DNA of 64,000 nt, taken from NCBI GenBank assembly GCA_944322255.1, contig CALUOK010000003.1:1-64000 (forward strand), given 5' to 3'. Made by a program: the position numbers and the translations under genes. The stretch is from Candidatus Methanomethylophilaceae archaeon. GTDB lineage: Archaea > Thermoplasmatota > Thermoplasmata > Methanomassiliicoccales > Methanomethylophilaceae. Shown here piece after piece: positions 7,869-16,293 of this stretch. Position 1 is the first letter of the stretch. Every line of letters starts with the position of its first letter. Under the pieces are notes generated by a model. That model saw nothing but the letters and a program-made list of their open reading frames with translations. It did no database searches and was not told the origin of the DNA.

Positions 7869-7884
7869 TTAGACAAATGTCTAA
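7869..7884. promoter_or_regulatory. Palindrome upstream of glutamine synthetase
   Basis: TTAGACA-AA-TGTCTAA is a perfect inverted repeat with 7-bp arms, about 50 bp upstream of the GSIII TATA box. It does not match the GGAA-N6-TTCC NrpR operator known from other methanogens, so any nitrogen regulator binding here would be a different one. Confidence 0.5.
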
Positions 7885-8083: not shown

Positions 8084-9016
8084 ATGGTTTTCAAGCTGTT
8101 CAAGAACGCAGACGAGCTCTACGACGAGGGCAAGGAGCTCCTCAAGAGGGGCGAGTACGACAAGGCCCGCGACTACCTGCAGAAGTCCATAGACAAGGAC
8201 GGGGGTCCGGACGACGCGGCGGCCGTGAAGGTCGCCCTGATCGACCTCAAGGACAGGCTCACCAACGTGAACGCCTACCAGAACCTGCTGGCGAAGCTGG
8301 AGGCCTTCAACGAGGACAGGTTCGAGTTCGGACTGTCCGAGGTCAGCCGCAGCGAGCTCATCACCGAGTGCCAGCTCACGATAAGGAAGATACAGCTGCT
8401 GTCCAGCGGGGGCGAGGGCCAGCAGCTCATGGACAAGGCCCAGAAGCTCCAGCAGCTGGCGCAGGACTACCAGGCCCAGATCGGCGACAGGCACCTCATT
8501 GTCCTGGAGCTGTTCAAGAACGACACCTCCGTCACGGGAATGTCGGAGTTCTTCAACCTCATGGCGGTCTCCTACGAGTGCATGTCGGACGCCGTCGTCT
8601 GGGAAAACCCGGCGCAGGCCGCCGAGTACGAGCAGGTGGCCATGGGATACCGCCAGCAGAACGGACAGAGCGGCGACACCAACATGGCCAAGGTGAAGGC
8701 CTACTCCACCACCTGCACGTGCTGGCTGTGCGGCAGGATAGCCACCGGCGAGGGGATCCACTTCTACACCGCCCCGGCGGACGTGTCCCCCGCGCTGGAC
8801 GACAAGGACAAACCCACCGCCAGGTCCAGACCGGACGCACCGGGCCACATCTACATCTGTCGCGCCTGCTACTCCGCGGTCTCCAACCGCTCGGACGAGA
8901 TCTCCAGGGAGTACTACAACCAGGCCGTGCAGGAGATGCGCGCCATGGAGATGAGGCTGCAGGCGCAGATAGCCGCCCTGCAGAGCCAGATCGCATTCGC
9001 AAGGATGAGTAGATGA
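8084..9016 (+). CDS. TPR-like protein with zinc-binding cysteines, first gene of SPFH unit
   Basis: The 310-residue protein starts with a TPR-like helical pair (residues 9-36: ELYDEGKELLKRGEYDKARDYL). A helical middle follows, then a split cysteine cluster (C211, C213, C216 and C259, C262) that probably binds zinc, and a C-terminal amphipathic or coiled-coil helix (275-310). No signal peptide or TM segment is seen, so it is probably a cytoplasmic scaffold. The start at 8084 follows a purine-rich stretch (gggaaggg) and matches the first TPR-like helix; the frame to 7877 adds low-complexity residues. It is separated by 1 base from the next gene, which argues for co-translation. Function is unknown; context points to a membrane-associated complex. 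Confidence 0.8.
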   Translation: MVFKLFKNADELYDEGKELLKRGEYDKARDYLQKSIDKDGGPDDAAAVKVALIDLKDRLTNVNAYQNLLAKLEAFNEDRFEFGLSEVSRSELITECQLTIRKIQLLSSGGEGQQLMDKAQKLQQLAQDYQAQIGDRHLIVLELFKNDTSVTGMSEFFNLMAVSYECMSDAVVWENPAQAAEYEQVAMGYRQQNGQSGDTNMAKVKAYSTTCTCWLCGRIATGEGIHFYTAPADVSPALDDKDKPTARSRPDAPGHIYICRACYSAVSNRSDEISREYYNQAVQEMRAMEMRLQAQIAALQSQIAFARMSR

Positions 9017-9017
9017 C

Positions 9018-10562
9018 ATGGACCAGATGGTAGAGCTGAGATGCAAGTACTGCGGAGCCCCGCTCGACCGCGACAGCGTGGAGTCCGAGGCCCAGTACGT
9101 GACCTGCCCGTACTGCGGGACCACCCAGCAGAGGGTGGACGCCAAGGCGTACATGGACCAGATGATGGCCCAGATCAAGTCGTGGATCGGCAAGGCCATC
9201 CCCGGCGGGTTCTCGATGACCCAGACGGACAACGTGGACCCCATAGCCAGGCACAACATATTCGTGAACAATGTCAAGCCCATGCTGGACGTGGAGCTCA
9301 CCGAGTACAGGCTCGCCCTGAACTCCGTCATTTCCTCTCCGCTGATCGTCCTGCCGTTCACCAAGGGGGAGCCGGCCAAGTCCAACCACACATCCGCCCA
9401 GGCCTTCGAGTTCAACGCCAAGCTGAAGAGCATCGAGCCGCTGGCCGTGGACCAGGACAGCCGGGCCTCCATAACCGACGGCGAGAACATGTCGTCTGCC
9501 TACGCCATGATAGTGAACAACTCTAAGCTGCTCACCGACACAACCCCCGGAAGATTCGCGATGATGTCCAACAACTTTAAGGACTCGGCCGAATCGGTCA
9601 GGAAATGCAAGGGGTACGAGCCGCTGGCCGCCAGACTGGACGCCCTGTCGGAGGTGTGCACCGCATCCGACATGGTCCTGAACGGCGACGCCCTCGGATG
9701 CTCCGCCAAGGCCGAATCCGCCATAAACAAGCTGGAGGCGGCCAAGAAGGAGATCCTGATGAACCCGCGCATGGCGGTGATGATCAGGGCGGTGGACATC
9801 GAGCTCGCCCAGTGCAGGACGCTGAAGAACGTGGCGGACATGGTCACCAGCGGGACCACGAAGGACCCGCTCAAGGTTCTGGAGCTCGTCAACGGGCTGA
9901 CCAGCATAGAGTACCCGCGGGTCCGCGGATGGGACCAGCTGCTGGGGAGGCAGGAGAGGGACCGCGAGCTGTACGGCTACGTGGAGGCCATCGTCTCCGC
10001 CAAGAGCGGCGGGACCCTCCCCATATGCCCCGGCTCCGGGGAGGTCCTGTTCCCGTTCTGGGACGTGGACCTGAAGTACAGCTTCACCACGGGCGCGTTC
10101 TTCTCCAAGAAGACCGTGGAGGTCACCGAGGACCTGCTGGTCCCGGCAACGTTCACCGTCCACCAGGAGGCCCTGACCAACCCGCGCTCCGGGCTCACGG
10201 ACATCTTCTCGATGGCGCCGGAGAGCTCGATCATGGACAGGATCAAGGGCGACGAGGACAGCATCAGCGGCGGCGCCGGGATCGGAAGGCTCGCCGACTC
10301 CGCCGCGGAGAACGGCCCCGGCTCCAGGGAGGTCGTCGTGCCCCTCAGCACGAGGACGGAGGCCGCCAGACTGGTGGAGTGCTACCTGGACCAGTGCACC
10401 AAAACCCATTCGAAGCTCAGGCTCAGCAAACCGAACGTCAAGAGGCTCGTGTACGTGCCCTGCGGCAGGAGCGCCGACGGCGTGGTCCTGCCCAAGGAGT
10501 TCGGCGGCCTGGAGCCGGCGATAATCAGAAGGACCAACCTGGAGAACACACTCAAGATATGA
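9018..10562 (+). CDS. Zinc-ribbon protein of unknown function, SPFH unit
   Basis: This 514-residue protein opens with a rubredoxin-like zinc ribbon (C9, C12, C30, C33: CKYC and CPYC). A long region without TM segments follows that I do not recognise, with predicted mixed alpha/beta character and a conserved-looking C-terminus (RLVYVPCGRSADGVV). The ribbon resembles those of the neighbouring TPR and SPFH proteins, so they may assemble through similar zinc modules. It is translated 1 base after the first gene and 13 bases before the third. In Bacillus ydjFGHI, zinc-ribbon proteins also accompany an SPFH protein; orthology is inferred from layout only. Confidence 0.78.
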   Translation: MDQMVELRCKYCGAPLDRDSVESEAQYVTCPYCGTTQQRVDAKAYMDQMMAQIKSWIGKAIPGGFSMTQTDNVDPIARHNIFVNNVKPMLDVELTEYRLALNSVISSPLIVLPFTKGEPAKSNHTSAQAFEFNAKLKSIEPLAVDQDSRASITDGENMSSAYAMIVNNSKLLTDTTPGRFAMMSNNFKDSAESVRKCKGYEPLAARLDALSEVCTASDMVLNGDALGCSAKAESAINKLEAAKKEILMNPRMAVMIRAVDIELAQCRTLKNVADMVTSGTTKDPLKVLELVNGLTSIEYPRVRGWDQLLGRQERDRELYGYVEAIVSAKSGGTLPICPGSGEVLFPFWDVDLKYSFTTGAFFSKKTVEVTEDLLVPATFTVHQEALTNPRSGLTDIFSMAPESSIMDRIKGDEDSISGGAGIGRLADSAAENGPGSREVVVPLSTRTEAARLVECYLDQCTKTHSKLRLSKPNVKRLVYVPCGRSADGVVLPKEFGGLEPAIIRRTNLENTLKI

Positions 10563-10575
10563 GGAGGGATGGAAC

Positions 10576-10947
10576 ATGAGCGAGGAATCCAAAGGACTCA
10601 ACGCCAGGACGTGGAACGCCATTTCGGTCGGCGTCCTCCTGCTGGCAGTGGCCCTGGGCATCATCCTGTACGTCGTGACGGAGGACATCCTGAGCACCTT
10701 CGCGACCATACTGCTGGCGTACGGCGTGTACATGGCGGCGATGAGCTTCGCGAAGAAGGGAGGGGAGAACAACTTCGGACCCTCCGAGTCCGATGCGGCC
10801 CTGGCCGCCGGAGCGGTGATCGCCGGCATCGGCGCGGCCTGCTTCGCGTACACCTTCAGCGACAGCGTATACATCACCGTCGCGGTGCTGATAATCGTGC
10901 TCGCCGTGGTGGGCATCACCATGGCCGTGAAGAACAGGAACGTGTGA
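10576..10947 (+). CDS. Small four-TM membrane protein, SPFH unit
   Basis: The 123-residue protein has four predicted membrane helices (about 12-34, 40-58, 76-93 and 97-117), short loops, and a positively charged C-terminus (KNRNV). It is the only integral membrane protein of the unit and is a candidate membrane anchor for the soluble zinc-ribbon, coiled-coil and SPFH partners. An SD-like GAGGAGGG lies just before the ATG at 10576. No known transporter family is evident. Confidence 0.78.
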   Translation: MSEESKGLNARTWNAISVGVLLLAVALGIILYVVTEDILSTFATILLAYGVYMAAMSFAKKGGENNFGPSESDAALAAGAVIAGIGAACFAYTFSDSVYITVAVLIIVLAVVGITMAVKNRNV

Positions 10948-10952
10948 GAGAT

Positions 10953-11495
10953 ATGACACTGGATCAGACAGTCAAGAGCGAGATGAAGAGCGAGATGTCC
11001 CTCACCGAGAGGGTCGCCATGTACATCCCCATCTACAGGGGGTACAGGGAGAAGAACCTCCGCAGGGAGGAGGACAGGGCCGTCAGGGGCGAGCTGTCCC
11101 GCGCCCTGCAGGGCACCAAGGCCGAGCTGGCCACCATCCAGAGGGAGCTGGCGTCCCAGCCCGAGCTGATGATGGACATGGAGAGGATCAGGACCAAGGT
11201 CGACAGGTACGACATCAGCGTGAAGAAGGCCGTGAACGGGTACTCCGGGTTCCACACCGCCGTGAAGATCCTGGAGGACGACCTGGACGCCCTCGTGCAG
11301 TGGGACGCCAAACTGATCGAGGACATCAGACTGCTGAGGGAGGGCACCGCCGACCTCCTGGACAGCATAGACCGCGGAATGGAGGTCAAGGCGGAGATCC
11401 GCAACCTCGAGAGGGGCGTGGACTCCATGATGGAGGACTACAACCAGAGGGAGACCATCATGAAGGGATTCGGCGGCGAGCCGGAGGGAGAGTGA
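10953..11495 (+). CDS. Coiled-coil protein, PspA-like in shape, SPFH unit
   Basis: The 180-residue protein is almost wholly helical and highly charged, with long heptad-like stretches at about 28-75 and 90-170, and no cysteines. Its size and helical content recall PspA/IM30/ESCRT-III proteins (usually about 220 aa), which accompany SPFH-zinc-ribbon proteins in Bacillus ydjFGHI. Sequence identity to PspA is not obvious by eye, so this is a structural analogy. The ATG at 10953 lies 5 bases after the preceding stop, and the stop is 4 bases before the SPFH gene. Confidence 0.75.
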   Translation: MTLDQTVKSEMKSEMSLTERVAMYIPIYRGYREKNLRREEDRAVRGELSRALQGTKAELATIQRELASQPELMMDMERIRTKVDRYDISVKKAVNGYSGFHTAVKILEDDLDALVQWDAKLIEDIRLLREGTADLLDSIDRGMEVKAEIRNLERGVDSMMEDYNQRETIMKGFGGEPEGE

Positions 11496-11499
11496 TCGA

Positions 11500-12615
11500 A
11501 TGGCATCGAAAACCAACGTCGTGACCTGGGACAACCAGGGTCCGGACGACATCATCTACGCGTGCGAGCACGACGACCTCAGGACACTCACGTCCGTGAC
11601 CGTCCCCGAGCACGCCGTGGCGATCTTCGTCAGAGACGGGCAGCTGACCGGTGTGCTGGAGCCGGGAAGGCACCTCATCACCAGCAGCAACATCCCCTGG
11701 CTGACCAAGCTGTACAACCTGGCCCTGGGGTACAAGGAGACCCCGTTCAAGGTGCAGATCATCTTCGTGTCCCAGAAGATGTTCAACGGCAAGTGGGGCA
11801 TCCGCGGGATGATCAAGGCCGCCCCCGGCTACGAGGTCCCCATCACCCTGATGGCCAACGGGGACTACCAGTTCAGGATCAACGACATCCCGGTGTTCTA
11901 CACCCAGGTGCTCGGAGGCCTGCAGAGCTACACCACCGGCGACCTGAACGCGTTCATGCGCGGGTTCATAAACGAGCAGGTGACCCAGCAGCTCACCAAG
12001 CAGTTCTACATGGACGTGCTGAACAACCTGGAGAAGGCCTCCACCACCACGAAGGTCATGGTGGAGCAGTACTTCCAGCAGAGGGGCATCGAGCTCCTGG
12101 CCCTGAAGATCGCCGAGGTCAGGACCACCGAGGAGGACCAGCAGAAGGTCTTCGAGTTCCTGCAGTTCAACAGCGCCAACGGAGAGGCGTTCAGGAGGTA
12201 CGAGATCATGGAGAGCATGGCCAACGCCATCGGCACCTCCGAGGGAGGGGCCGCCATGGGAACCGGGATGCTCCTGTTCCCCCAGATGTACCAGCAGCTC
12301 CAGCAGCAGCCGGTCCAGGGCATCCAGGGCGGCCAGGCCGCGCAGCAGCCCACCACCATGTGCCCGTACTGCGGCAGCCCGAACCCGTATCCGTACAAGT
12401 TCTGCAACAACTGCGGCAAGCCGTCGCCCCAGATGCAGATGCAGCAGGCTCCGCAGGCGCAGCCCCAGCCGGCCCCCGCACAGCCCGCACCCGCCCAGAC
12501 TGCTCCGGCGGGAGACGCGCCCAGGTTCAACAACTGCCCGTACTGCGGACAGAACATCTCCGGCCTCCCCAAGACGCCGAAGTTCTGCCCGTACTGCTCC
12601 GAGCAGCTGTACTGA
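11500..12615 (+). CDS. SPFH/Band 7 domain protein with C-terminal double zinc ribbon (YdjI type)
   Basis: The 371-residue protein has an N-terminal SPFH (virion-core-like) domain of about 230 residues with landmarks VPEHAVAIFVRDGQ, VLEPGRHLI and IIFVSQKMFNGKWG. A Gln/Pro-rich linker and two zinc ribbons follow (CPYC...CNNC about 287-305; CPYC...CPYC about 347-368). This is the arrangement of the YdjI/virion-core family, which forms membrane-associated scaffolds without an N-terminal TM segment. It is the last gene of the unit; a GC hairpin with a GCGA loop (12627-12644) follows. A role in membrane stress or phage defence is inference from family associations. Confidence 0.88.
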   Translation: MASKTNVVTWDNQGPDDIIYACEHDDLRTLTSVTVPEHAVAIFVRDGQLTGVLEPGRHLITSSNIPWLTKLYNLALGYKETPFKVQIIFVSQKMFNGKWGIRGMIKAAPGYEVPITLMANGDYQFRINDIPVFYTQVLGGLQSYTTGDLNAFMRGFINEQVTQQLTKQFYMDVLNNLEKASTTTKVMVEQYFQQRGIELLALKIAEVRTTEEDQQKVFEFLQFNSANGEAFRRYEIMESMANAIGTSEGGAAMGTGMLLFPQMYQQLQQQPVQGIQGGQAAQQPTTMCPYCGSPNPYPYKFCNNCGKPSPQMQMQQAPQAQPQPAPAQPAPAQTAPAGDAPRFNNCPYCGQNISGLPKTPKFCPYCSEQLY

Positions 12616-12626
12616 CAACCACCTTA

Positions 12627-12644
12627 CCGGCGGGCGACCGCCGG
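12627..12644 (+). terminator. Terminator of the SPFH unit
   Basis: CCGGCGG-GCGA-CCGCCGG forms a perfect 7-bp stem with a GNRA-type loop, followed by a pyrimidine-rich tract. It lies 12 bp after the SPFH stop codon and before the convergent HD gene. Confidence 0.55.
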
Positions 12645-12680: not shown

Positions 12681-13115
12681 TCAAGACTCCAGGATCTCCC
12701 TCGCCTTGGCATACTTCCTGCGCCAGTGCTCCCTCTTCTTCTCCGTGACGTCGGCCAGCGCGTTGCGGGACTCGTCGGAGTTGTGGGCCAGGTCCCCCAG
12801 CTTCACCGCCCTGGCTATCGGGTTCCCCTTGAGCGCACGGACGTAGTCGAAGTAATCCACGTCGTCATCGTGGGTCATCAGGCGGAGGGCCTCCATGACC
12901 TCCTCAGGGAACTCCCCCTCCAGGTCCTCGAAGGTCACGTCGGTGTCCTCGACCACGTCGTGGAGGAGCGCCACGCACGTGGTGTACTCGTCGGTCATCT
13001 GCTCCGCGACATGGAACGGGTGGAACACGTACGGCATCCCACATACGTCGAACTGTCCGTGATGCGCCTCGTAGGCGATCCTCGCTGCCTTCACTGTGAG
13101 CGGTGTGTAGATCAT
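12681..13115 (-). CDS. HD-domain hydrolase, MESH1/(p)ppGpp-hydrolase type
   Basis: The 144-residue protein matches the stand-alone RelA/SpoT hydrolase (MESH1, small alarmone hydrolase) pattern: AxxxHxGQ near 17-21, HP at 32-33, HDVVEDT at 52-58 and the VKLGDLAHN segment at 104-112. Together they provide the metal ligands H32, H52, D53 and D108. It has no synthetase or TGS domain. Likely substrates are (p)ppGpp, or NADPH as shown for metazoan MESH1; which one is unknown. The ATG at 13115 is preferred to 13145 because the family starts close to it. It is divergent from the ATPase gene. Confidence 0.82.
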   Translation of the reverse strand: MIYTPLTVKAARIAYEAHHGQFDVCGMPYVFHPFHVAEQMTDEYTTCVALLHDVVEDTDVTFEDLEGEFPEEVMEALRLMTHDDDVDYFDYVRALKGNPIARAVKLGDLAHNSDESRNALADVTEKKREHWRRKYAKAREILES

Positions 13116-13316
13116 GCTTATCCCTGAATTCCAATCGGATACCACGGTTATGAACTATACTGGCCACTTTTTGATGAAACAGCCGTCGTAACGTCTGGAT
13201 TGATCACAGTTTCCAAAACTTCATCAAAAATTGAAAATTATTTTTTCTAAAATAATTTAATAAAATTTATTTTTCAAAAAGATAAATTAAAATAATCAAA
13301 TACCATTTGACAAATC

Positions 13317-14729
13317 ATGGTGTTTGTCGGAAGAAAGTATGAGTTAGAGCGTCTAGAAGATCTGAGAAAGAGAGAAGGTGTGAAGACCTGCTTGATCTAC
13401 GGAAAAAGACGCGTCGGAAAGTCCGAACTCATCAGCCAGTTCTGCAAAGACAAACGCAGCATATACTTCGAATACACCACAGGGTCACTGTCCAGTCAGC
13501 TTAAGTACATGGCTGATGTGTTCAGTGAGACGACTGGCGAGTACAGAGACGACTACGACATGCTGTATCTGAGTCTCAAGGATATAGCGGACTATTGCAA
13601 AGAATCCGAAACCGTAGTCGTGTTCGACGAATTCCAGTATCTTGTCGGCGATGATGAAGAGGGAGAAATATCCTCTGAGTTCCAAAGGTTCGTGGACACA
13701 CTCCTGAAAGATACGAACACCATGGTGATACTGTGCGGCTCGTACGCATCCATGATGATCGAGATTACTTCCGACCCTAACCGCCCACTGTACGGAAGGT
13801 TCCCGAACAGTATAGAGATTGAACCGCTGTCATTGAGAGAGTGCTCAGAGCTCCACCCCAGCCTGTGCGATTTGGATGTCCTCAAACTGTATCTGACAAT
13901 AGGTGGATTCCCGGGATTCCATGTTGAAGCTACTGGAGACACATACGAGGAATGCATCTGGAACGCGTTCTTCAAGAAACAGGCCCCCCTTCAGAAAGAT
14001 GTTCAACTGCTGATAGGATGCGGAATGTCTAATGTGGAGGAGTACCGCTCCATCCTGCGTGTGATATCCGAGGGGTCCGTCACGAACAAAACCATTGCCG
14101 AGAAGGCGGGAATGGAGAGGATGACCTGCAGGAACCAACTGCAGAGATTGGTGGACTCTGACATCCTTGGGATTCACAATCCGATGTACGGTGCTCCGAA
14201 GCACCCCAGATATTACATAAAAGAGGATGCAGTGGCATTCTACTACGGAGTTTACGAAACGAACAGGATGAGGATAGACAGCAAAAGGCCTGTCGAGACC
14301 CTGAACAAACTGGCTCCGAGCATATCGACATACCTCGGACTGAGATTTGAATTCGCATGCATGAATTATCTCAAGAACAACTACTACTGCACCGAGATCG
14401 GACGCTGGTGGGGAGCTTCGAAAACCATCGGAGATGATGGAAAACCGATCATCGTGGACATCGATGTTACAGCCAAGGTGGAAAGCGGGGGTGCCACATA
14501 CTACGTTTTCGGGGAATGTAAAATGCGCAACCGCCTGACGGGATTCCACGAACTCAACGAGCTCGTAGCGAGAACGGAACTGACGAAGACCGAAGTAAAT
14601 CCCACATACATGCTGTTCTCGACATCTGGATTCGACGATGACCTGTTGGACTATGCGGACGTCAGCAACAATGTGAAACTGGTCACCCTGGACCAGATAA
14701 TGGGGAAGACTCCTGCGGAACCTTTCTGA
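13317..14729 (+). CDS. Archaeal AAA+ ATPase with DUF234-type nuclease-like C-terminus
   Basis: This 470-residue protein belongs to the archaeal ATPase family: FVGRKYEL at 3-10, Walker A GKRRVGKS (29-36), Walker B VVVFDE (100-105), a winged-helix region near 245-290, and a DUF234-like C-terminal domain with IDVTAK and GECK, consistent with a PD-(D/E)XK fold. Base composition is clearly more AT-rich than the neighbours and the 5' flank is nearly all A/T, suggesting transfer. Members are often linked to mobile elements or defence, but no function is established for this one. A TATA-like stretch within 13245-13290 could drive it. Confidence 0.85.
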   Translation: MVFVGRKYELERLEDLRKREGVKTCLIYGKRRVGKSELISQFCKDKRSIYFEYTTGSLSSQLKYMADVFSETTGEYRDDYDMLYLSLKDIADYCKESETVVVFDEFQYLVGDDEEGEISSEFQRFVDTLLKDTNTMVILCGSYASMMIEITSDPNRPLYGRFPNSIEIEPLSLRECSELHPSLCDLDVLKLYLTIGGFPGFHVEATGDTYEECIWNAFFKKQAPLQKDVQLLIGCGMSNVEEYRSILRVISEGSVTNKTIAEKAGMERMTCRNQLQRLVDSDILGIHNPMYGAPKHPRYYIKEDAVAFYYGVYETNRMRIDSKRPVETLNKLAPSISTYLGLRFEFACMNYLKNNYYCTEIGRWWGASKTIGDDGKPIIVDIDVTAKVESGGATYYVFGECKMRNRLTGFHELNELVARTELTKTEVNPTYMLFSTSGFDDDLLDYADVSNNVKLVTLDQIMGKTPAEPF

Positions 14730-14790: not shown

Positions 14791-16293
14791 ATGGCCGGCA
14801 AGAGACGTCTCAGAATGAGGGGTGTGAAGCATTCGTCCAAGAGGCTGGAGGACGACCTCCTGGACCGCGCGAGGACTCTCGCGGACAACCCCGGGCTGCT
14901 CAGGCCCCAGTGCGCTGGGAACTGCAGGAAATGCGTTTTCGACAAGACGTTCAAGAACATCGACTCCCTCCAGAAGATCCGCAACAACAAGGACGCCCTC
15001 GTCAAGGAGGCGTCCAGACTCGGAGGGGACGACATCGTCAGGGCCTACGCCGGCACCATCTCGCTCGCCGCAGAGGGGGCGATCCCCATGCTTGCCAGCG
15101 GCACGCTCGGCGGAGAGAAGATCTCGTACGCCGTCCGCGGCACCGTGAACCCCGCGTTCCTCATCGGATGCCAGTACTACGACGACCCCCGCAAGAGGCT
15201 CCTCCTCTACAACGGCGTCGTGAAGAAGAACAAGCTCCACCTCTACTCCTTCGGGGAGGACCTGGTGTGCTCCGACACCCCCAACATGCCGGAGGACTAC
15301 CTGTACGACACCTTCTGGGAGACCCCCTACGAGTTCCCCGACGACGGGCTGGACTGCGGCCATCAGTCCTCCGCCGTGCTGGAGATCCGCATCAAGTCCC
15401 TGGGCGAGACGGTCAGGATCTGCGACGGATGCGCCAAGGACGTCTCCACGCTGATGTACATCGTGTCCAGGCTCGCCGCCGTGGACCCCCTGGACGACAT
15501 CACCGTGTCCGTCAGGCACAAGTACCACGCCGCAGGCGAGAGCGACCTGGAACCCATCGAGGGGGACAGACTCAAGGAGTACATGGTAGGGAAGGTCACC
15601 GACTCTGCGCTCATCTCCTCGGTCAAGAGGTCCAGGATGGGCAGCCTTAGGGACGGCGCCACCGCCACGTACATCATCGGCACAAAGAACTACGGCTCCG
15701 ACCTCGACGGCTTCATCGCCGACCTCTCCGGAGAGGAGAGGGAGAAGGGCTCCCTGAAGAGGTTCCTGTCCGAGAACAGCAGGGCGGTCATCCTCAAGAC
15801 CAACAAGGTATCCGAGGCTTACGCCACGCTGTGGGAGCTGGACTGGAGGGAGCTCATCGCCGCCCACACCGATGCGAAGACCGCGGAGGCCATGGGCAAC
15901 ATGTCCAAGGGCCAGCCTATGACGGTGCTCGCCGACGCGTACAGCATCTTCGTGTCCGCCGACGTCGTGGCGTCCCTGCCGGAGTTCAAGAAGCCCGGCC
16001 AGATCACCATGGTCGCCGACAAGATGGCCAAGGCCGCCAAGGTCGGCGGAGGAAACATGGTCGTGGAGACCGTCGGCAAGACCCCGCTCAAGGACGGGAA
16101 GTCCCGTGTCGTCGCAGCCGCCTTCGCACTGGCCACAGGGATGGATGCGCCTGTCAAGCTGTCCGCCGACGAGTTGGACTTCGCCCAGTACCTCGTGCCG
16201 TTCGCCAGGAGCGTCATAGACGCCCAGGGCGAGAAGTACAGGGACGCCATGAACACGTTGCTCACTGCGAGCAGCGCCGGCGAGAAGGTGTGA
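14791..16293 (+). CDS. Conserved-looking cysteine-containing protein of unknown function
   Basis: I do not recognise this 500-residue protein. It starts with a basic segment, has a possible zinc site in the first 50 residues (CAGNCRKC, 42-49), and a second cysteine group near 200-230 (CGH ... CDGCAKD). The C-terminal third is Ala-rich and soluble. There are no TM segments. Cys pairs and a basic start suggest nucleic-acid binding, but this is inference. A TATA-like tcttttac about 28 bp before the ATG suggests its own leaderless transcript. It overlaps the convergent Taw2 gene by 32 bp. Confidence 0.75.
   Translation: MAGKRRLRMRGVKHSSKRLEDDLLDRARTLADNPGLLRPQCAGNCRKCVFDKTFKNIDSLQKIRNNKDALVKEASRLGGDDIVRAYAGTISLAAEGAIPMLASGTLGGEKISYAVRGTVNPAFLIGCQYYDDPRKRLLLYNGVVKKNKLHLYSFGEDLVCSDTPNMPEDYLYDTFWETPYEFPDDGLDCGHQSSAVLEIRIKSLGETVRICDGCAKDVSTLMYIVSRLAAVDPLDDITVSVRHKYHAAGESDLEPIEGDRLKEYMVGKVTDSALISSVKRSRMGSLRDGATATYIIGTKNYGSDLDGFIADLSGEEREKGSLKRFLSENSRAVILKTNKVSEAYATLWELDWRELIAAHTDAKTAEAMGNMSKGQPMTVLADAYSIFVSADVVASLPEFKKPGQITMVADKMAKAAKVGGGNMVVETVGKTPLKDGKSRVVAAAFALATGMDAPVKLSADELDFAQYLVPFARSVIDAQGEKYRDAMNTLLTASSAGEKV

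Follow-up and report, generated by a model that had tools for sequence, protein, structure and literature searches.

What kind of machine is built by five closely packed archaeal genes, one of which encodes an SPFH protein beside a small, wholly helical protein in the position that PspA has in Bacillus? The PspA/ESCRT-III proteins are thought to represent an ancient, near-universal principle of membrane repair, and are often partnered by SPFH proteins. The genes in question lie at positions 8084-12615 of a 64,000-nucleotide stretch of contig CALUOK010000003.1 (GenBank assembly GCA_944322255.1, Candidatus Methanomethylophilaceae archaeon), the whole of which we call the window. All five are on the plus strand, separated by gaps of 1, 13, 5 and 4 bp in order, just as a first-pass annotation of the sequence had described them, and are named here A (TPR/zinc protein), B (514 aa, zinc ribbon), C (four transmembrane segments), D (helical) and E (SPFH domain plus zinc ribbons). 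That annotation had taken the set for a candidate membrane-stress or defence system mirroring Bacillus ydjFGHI, with D as its PspA-like component. The reading at which we arrived, and to which we give about an even chance of being right, is that the products form one membrane-associated SPFH assembly working without PspA, anchored through C, partnered by the helical D and fitted with A-B as zinc-ribbon adaptors in the cytosol.

The neighbourhoods of these genes in related genomes support the five as one conserved functional unit. In a survey of the order Methanomassiliicoccales, B was present in 72 of the 102 genomes of the window's own family (f1; other families, genomes (G) and loci (L) carry labels only), and gene order was counted in the 43 relatives' loci that had room on both sides. 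The order A-B-C-D-E was kept in 37 of them (34 plain, two with overlapping open reading frame (ORF) starts and one with broken frames), the remaining six being two loci without C, two with A-B only and two of a short A-B-E subtype. The closest named relative locus comes from a Candidatus Methanomethylophilaceae metagenome-assembled genome (MAG), whose B is 82% identical, and other relative loci were found in MAGs of Methanomethylophilaceae, Methanoplasma and 'Methanomassiliicoccaceae'. The same five genes in the same order also occur outside f1: in G277 (family f34, L166), whose A, B, D and E are 30-43% identical to those of the window (blastp), in G320 (f34), where the set is divided between two contigs (L167 and L168), and in G573 (family f7, L243). 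Identity to the window's set in these two further Thermoplasmatota families is about 30-48% where measured, and a gene order preserved that far out argues strongly that the five work as one functional unit. The genes do stay together in relatives, far more than chance would give, as the first-pass annotation had expected. The glutamate synthase gene gltB lies near the operon in several genera, which marks a stable chromosomal locus. One genome, G095, has two copies of the operon (L058/L090 and L065/L087), one of them without C.

Within this unit two modules have been combined: D-E, accompanied by a small membrane protein, and A-B. The D family was found in 143 of the 390 sampled genomes of the phylum and a long B match in about 39, and the D relatives of other families match the window's D with an HHalign value of 99.9%. 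When 34 further Thermoplasmatota loci from many families were inspected, an SPFH gene stood directly 3' of D in 32, usually within 60 bp; in L213, one of the two exceptions, D is followed by an ORF that is SPFH-like as judged by eye and too divergent for the model. In 16 of 37 loci, the window's counted, the gene immediately 5' of D encodes a small multi-transmembrane protein, which in L200 is related to C (HHalign 93%), a relation to C not being demonstrable for the others. Other Methanomassiliicoccales families have D-E followed by three zinc-ribbon proteins, Z1-Z3, and some of these loci also hold LemA (PF04011, E 3e-31) and a TPM protein (PF04536, E 2e-30; L189). The operon D-E-Z1-Z2-Z3-LemA-TPM of L188, L189 and L192 amounts to a ydj-like set with D replacing PspA, and in L210, L211 and L217, which are among the f7 loci, D carries a fused N-terminal zinc ribbon.

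As for the second module, wherever both A and B were tested for, the two were present and adjacent, also in five genomes that were found via A alone. In families f7, f11, f65 and f67 they usually stand alone, with D-E elsewhere in most of these genomes. D is present in 12 of the 14 A-B genomes outside f1, often at a separate locus; among the first nine such genomes it was found in 8, against 108 of 342 other non-f1 genomes (Fisher p 8e-4, a value that ignores kinship). Since A-B stands alone in those four families and in two f1 loci, and D-E lacks A-B across most of the phylum, the operon could be seen as two independent systems that are co-regulated only, a cytosolic A-B and a C-D-E SPFH scaffold, but we consider this improbable: A-B-C-D-E is kept in the same order in three families, zinc ribbons are common to A, B and E, and the short subtype retains A, B, a divergent E and a four-transmembrane protein even though it is without D. 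In this subtype, A-B-E-T (L049-L052, L128 and L134), the SPFH protein is divergent, T is a four-transmembrane protein with a helical tail, and no D is present; G079 and G093 each hold both subtypes of the operon. The tail of T was tried as a D homologue and rejected (HHalign 0.9%). In L049, four extra zinc-ribbon ORFs precede the short subtype and a type II restriction-modification (RM)/Vsr cluster follows it.

What, then, is D? By every test applied it is not PspA, yet it stands in the position that PspA has in Bacillus. D is all helical in an AlphaFold2 (AF2) model (48 sequences; mean predicted local distance difference test score, pLDDT, 83), in which helices 38-65, 70-95, 108-140 and 146-172 form two short hairpins with a low-confidence break at 99-103, and a conserved 'P-Y-GY...RR..D' segment precedes the hairpins. 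Compared with PspA by HHalign, D gave 2.4%, 0.3% and 3.2%, against 94.9% for a control with the two halves of the PspA set. PspA, Vipp1 and ESCRT-III were not among the best 50 PDB structural matches of the model. The window's D had no Pfam match, and when 48 D proteins were compared with Pfam, the 25 families that they hit most frequently included neither PspA_IM30 nor Snf7. The coiled-coil protein encoded from 10953 had been called PspA-like in the first-pass annotation, and the structural comparison with PspA/Vipp1 that it had suggested revealed no PspA/ESCRT-III fold, as far as this could be tested with a model whose 48-sequence alignment and low-confidence break leave some doubt. The alternative that D is a very divergent PspA/ESCRT-III protein and the operon a true PspA-SPFH system would agree with its place beside a YdjI-type SPFH gene, its wholly helical, soluble nature and similar size, and the joining of SPFH-zinc-ribbon proteins with ESCRT-III in the Meth_adaptin ESCRT loci (PMC10936438), but the HHalign values, the family and structure matches and the architecture of the model (helices of 26-33 residues in two hairpins, versus the one long hairpin of PspA) make it quite unlikely.

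The distribution of PspA itself was also determined. PspA_IM30 (PF04012) was not found by profile search in the window's genome; its cut-off was reached in just 3 of the phylum's 390 genomes and 2 of the order's 147. Snf7 reached its own in 0 of 147 genomes of the order, with a model that is weak on archaeal ESCRT-III and borderline even in Sulfolobus. The only PspA-like genes of the order (L220 and L221; G019 and G021) lie just 3' of a gene for a 476-aa helical protein with a Ser/Gly-rich tail.

D does have a relative in the databases, namely the NCBIfam LIMLP_15305 family of Leptospira (NF047596), to which it aligns over nearly its full length (E 3e-7, with 1e-12 and 1e-14 for its relatives). 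The scores of D and its relatives, 30-54 bits (30.6 for the window's D), fall far short of the 210 that the equivalog cut-off requires, which makes D a homologue of this family and not a member. In the literature searched, LIMLP_15305 appears only as the neighbour of a non-coding RNA, with no function given. The best fold match of the D model in the PDB was the soluble domain of Chlamydia IncA (6e6a and 6e7e; E 3e-3, TM-score 0.51-0.54); both are helical bundles, but identity is 13-16% and D has no transmembrane segments, and the likeness, judged from a model, is probably one of shared bundle shape rather than homology. Neither B nor the L189 relative of D had a match in a plasmid search.

Of the remaining products, E has a Band_7_1 SPFH domain (PF13421, E 2.7e-23, 83 bits against a cut-off of 24), followed by a Gln/Pro-rich linker and two C-terminal CxxC...CxxC zinc ribbons, and has no transmembrane segment. 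C, with four hydrophobic segments and no cysteine-pair site, is the only one of the five with transmembrane segments, which makes it the likely anchor. A is soluble, with an N-terminal TPR at residues ~8-44 (Pfam TPR_2, E 2e-5), a helical middle, a four-cysteine site (C213-x2-C216 ... C259-x2-C262) and a C-terminal helix, and PDB entries of consensus TPR proteins were matched by its family profile at E 3e-7. Peptides or proteins are the usual ligands of TPRs. The cysteines of the predicted zinc sites are invariant in A (4/4 in 29 proteins), B (4/4 in 55) and E (8/8 in 30), three of the five products having been credited with zinc ribbons in the first-pass annotation.

B begins with a zinc ribbon (C9, C12, C30 and C33) and has no transmembrane segment. 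Its AF2 model (mean pLDDT 86) consists of this ribbon, a helical region at ~75-330 and a C-terminal alpha/beta region at 334-490 whose long strands lie at 343-376 and 473-485. Phylum-wide invariant columns (alignment A7, from which the out-of-frame L175 row was left out) include the four cysteines, P62, D74, R78, R206, W348, Y354, F356, G359, T394 and F397, among others. These look mostly structural, and on this sequence evidence B is more likely an adaptor than an enzyme. The TPR and 514-aa proteins had been put down as undescribed, and rightly so, given that no family was found in Pfam, NCBIfam, PADLOC or PHROGs for A beyond its TPR and zinc site or for B beyond its ribbon, and that a PDB fold search with the B model returned no significant match. 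Three candidates for B were rejected. A CTLH/GID8 (CRA) match at E 4e-4 with the family-level profile was gone with the phylum-level profile, and CTLH was not among the Pfam matches listed for B; HD-PTP matches to a Bro1 domain in Foldseek reached a probability of 0.96 (178 columns, root-mean-square deviation 4.2) but with E ~1 and TM-scores of 0.25/0.35; and the part in common with Z1-Z3 is only the N-terminal zinc ribbon, 29-33 residues long.

How far does the operon resemble known SPFH systems? The ydjGHI genes of B. subtilis include those for a TPM protein and an SPFH-zinc-ribbon protein (PMC11237479), and YdjI, which has no transmembrane segment, reaches the membrane, as does PspA, only with YdjG and YdjH, the proteins interacting with one another (PMC8581546). 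With pspA-ydjGHI (ydjFGHI) the window shares a YdjI-type Band_7_1 SPFH protein with a C-terminal zinc ribbon and no transmembrane segment (E), and an operon that also encodes a soluble helical protein together with a membrane protein and one with a zinc ribbon; related Methanomassiliicoccales operons also carry TPM, the YdjH domain. The differences are that D stands in place of PspA, that no TPM protein (YdjH) is found among the five products, and that A and B have no ydj counterpart. Moreover, YdjG unites zinc ribbons, an NTF2-like domain and a transmembrane segment, whereas in the window C has transmembrane segments without a ribbon and B a ribbon without transmembrane segments. The idea that the set mirrors ydjFGHI thus stands for the SPFH-zinc-ribbon protein and its membrane partner, and fails for PspA and for a zinc ribbon in C; the window's operon is like pspA-ydjGHI in design at most and is not a member of it.

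Two other kinds of locus are also similar in part. In bacteria, operons that contain TelA ('toxic anion resistance') or DUF4178, DUF350 and polyamine synthase genes encode SPFH proteins 27-31% identical to the archaeal E family, with zinc-ribbon or DUF4178 proteins after the SPFH gene, but their annotated neighbours include polyamine enzymes or TelA instead of A, B, C or D. The Meth_adaptin ESCRT loci of methanogens have an SPFH, a coiled-coil and a zinc-ribbon protein beside helical membrane-remodelling proteins (PMC10936438), but also Vps4, ESCRT-III and adaptin appendage domains, none of which is present in the window's five products. From their recurrence in ydj, TelA/DUF4178 and Meth_adaptin loci, SPFH-zinc-ribbon proteins give the impression of a hub used again and again with helical partners that can be exchanged; the window's operon is a new archaeal version of it, free of PspA and equipped with the undescribed A-B. 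We found no description of the operon and no paper naming SPFH together with Methanomassiliicoccales or Thermoplasmatota, in a search that left most subscription journals outside.

Unlike the parts and their linkage, the function of the operon is something we infer by analogy. On membranes, SPFH proteins assemble into rings or vaults, for which a 24-mer is cited (PMC10936438), and E may likewise oligomerise through its SPFH domain into a ring at the cytoplasmic face of the membrane. C would hold E there, and D would bind E as a rod, coat or lid, in the place that PspA has in Bacillus, by the same logic by which YdjI and PspA need YdjG and YdjH for the membrane. The cytosolic A (TPR) and B (helical adaptor) would attach to E by contacts between zinc ribbons, bringing in clients or sensing damage, and the whole would serve to maintain the membrane and its protein complexes under stress. 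That the products form one complex at the membrane, as the first-pass annotation had suggested, is plausible.

An assembly or quality-control scaffold for particular membrane complexes, like the prohibitin and HflK/C rings, would use the same parts otherwise: E-D would corral an enzyme and A-B deliver or hold its subunits, with no role in stress or repair. TPR and zinc-ribbon proteins are often adaptors, the chromosomal place beside nitrogen-assimilation genes is stable, and related operons contain LemA and TPM, the latter having been tied both to the repair of photosystem II and to the assembly of complex III (PMC11237479); however, no fixed client gene is linked, the partners of D-E vary between families and close relatives manage without the operon, and we think this reading unlikely.

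Several observations weigh against the stress-related SPFH assembly that we prefer. Near-complete genomes of the same genus (G073, G077 and G078) have neither B nor D, which indicates that the operon is dispensable and its role conditional. D, the proposed membrane partner, has no hydrophobic segment, and the Fisher value for the co-occurrence of A-B with D is subject to the kinship noted above. Two f1 loci (L122 and L125) have A-B with no C, D or E nearby, and G184 and G575 carry A-B but no D, suggesting that A-B can act alone or with other partners. Finally, no protein of known function is related to A or B.

An anti-viral defence or abortive-infection module, the other half of the first-pass proposal, found little to sustain it. 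Presence is patchy inside the genus, one copy of the short subtype (L049) adjoins the RM/Vsr cluster, and the ATPase_2/DUF234 gene downstream of the operon (Table 1) matches the PADLOC candidate PDC-S27 (E 2e-39), but ATPase_2/DUF234 genes are common in archaea, the PADLOC matches of the five products themselves were only noise (E 0.004-0.03, over parts of unrelated models), no domain typical of a nuclease, protease, NADase or pore-former was recognised in them, and the place near gltB is kept in several genera and is not that of a shifting island. We therefore regard defence as very improbable. Rfam, PHROGs and PADLOC searches for the operon found nothing.

The features of the locus are collected in Table 1. 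The start of A was placed as given there and not at the in-frame upstream ATG at 7877, its methionine being invariant in 29 orthologues. The single terminator that had been placed after the set corresponds to a hairpin 3' of E, but no T-run was found after it and a terminator scan gave no plus-strand terminator there, so its role as a terminator is unproven. Beyond the hairpin lies a convergent gene for an HD_4 domain protein, probably a (p)ppGpp-hydrolase-like enzyme. A gene similar to the ATPase_2/DUF234 gene is found near the short subtype in L051, and the 500-aa product that follows, which has several cysteine pairs and no Pfam match at E 0.001, is kept in the operon's vicinity by close relatives (L053, L055 and L056, 79-89% identity).

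Table 1. Features of the operon and its 3' flank (window coordinates).
Feature	Coordinates	Strand	Description
Gene A	8084..9016	+	310 aa, TPR/four-cysteine protein
Gene B	9018..10562	+	514 aa, N-terminal zinc ribbon
Gene C	10576..10947	+	123 aa, four transmembrane segments
Gene D	10953..11495	+	180 aa, helical
Gene E	11500..12615	+	371 aa, SPFH domain and two zinc ribbons
Hairpin	12627..12644	+	7-bp G+C perfect stem, GCGA loop, 3' of E
HD_4 gene	12681-13145	-	HD_4 domain protein
ATPase_2/DUF234 gene	13317-14729		ATPase_2/DUF234 protein
500-aa gene	14791-16293		Protein with several cysteine pairs

Taken more broadly, and more tentatively than the SPFH assembly itself, it is possible, if somewhat doubtful, that a PspA-poor phylum has retained in D, which has a relative in Leptospira, a separate helical family for coating or remodelling, tied to SPFH rings, and that Methanomethylophilaceae and some relatives have added the undescribed A-B, giving a five-part membrane machine that would stand in for PspA/ESCRT-III-SPFH systems without a protein of the ESCRT-III fold. 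In this archaeal phylum, which includes methanogens of host guts, PspA is all but absent (3/390 genomes) and the SPFH-zinc-ribbon protein is paired with another helical family, D (143/390), which raises the testable question of whether, together with an SPFH ring, a different helical protein can do the job of PspA. A and B come on top of this as two protein families in strict linkage, without relatives of known function, and the operon, these two undescribed families included, is a concrete new candidate membrane complex to test.

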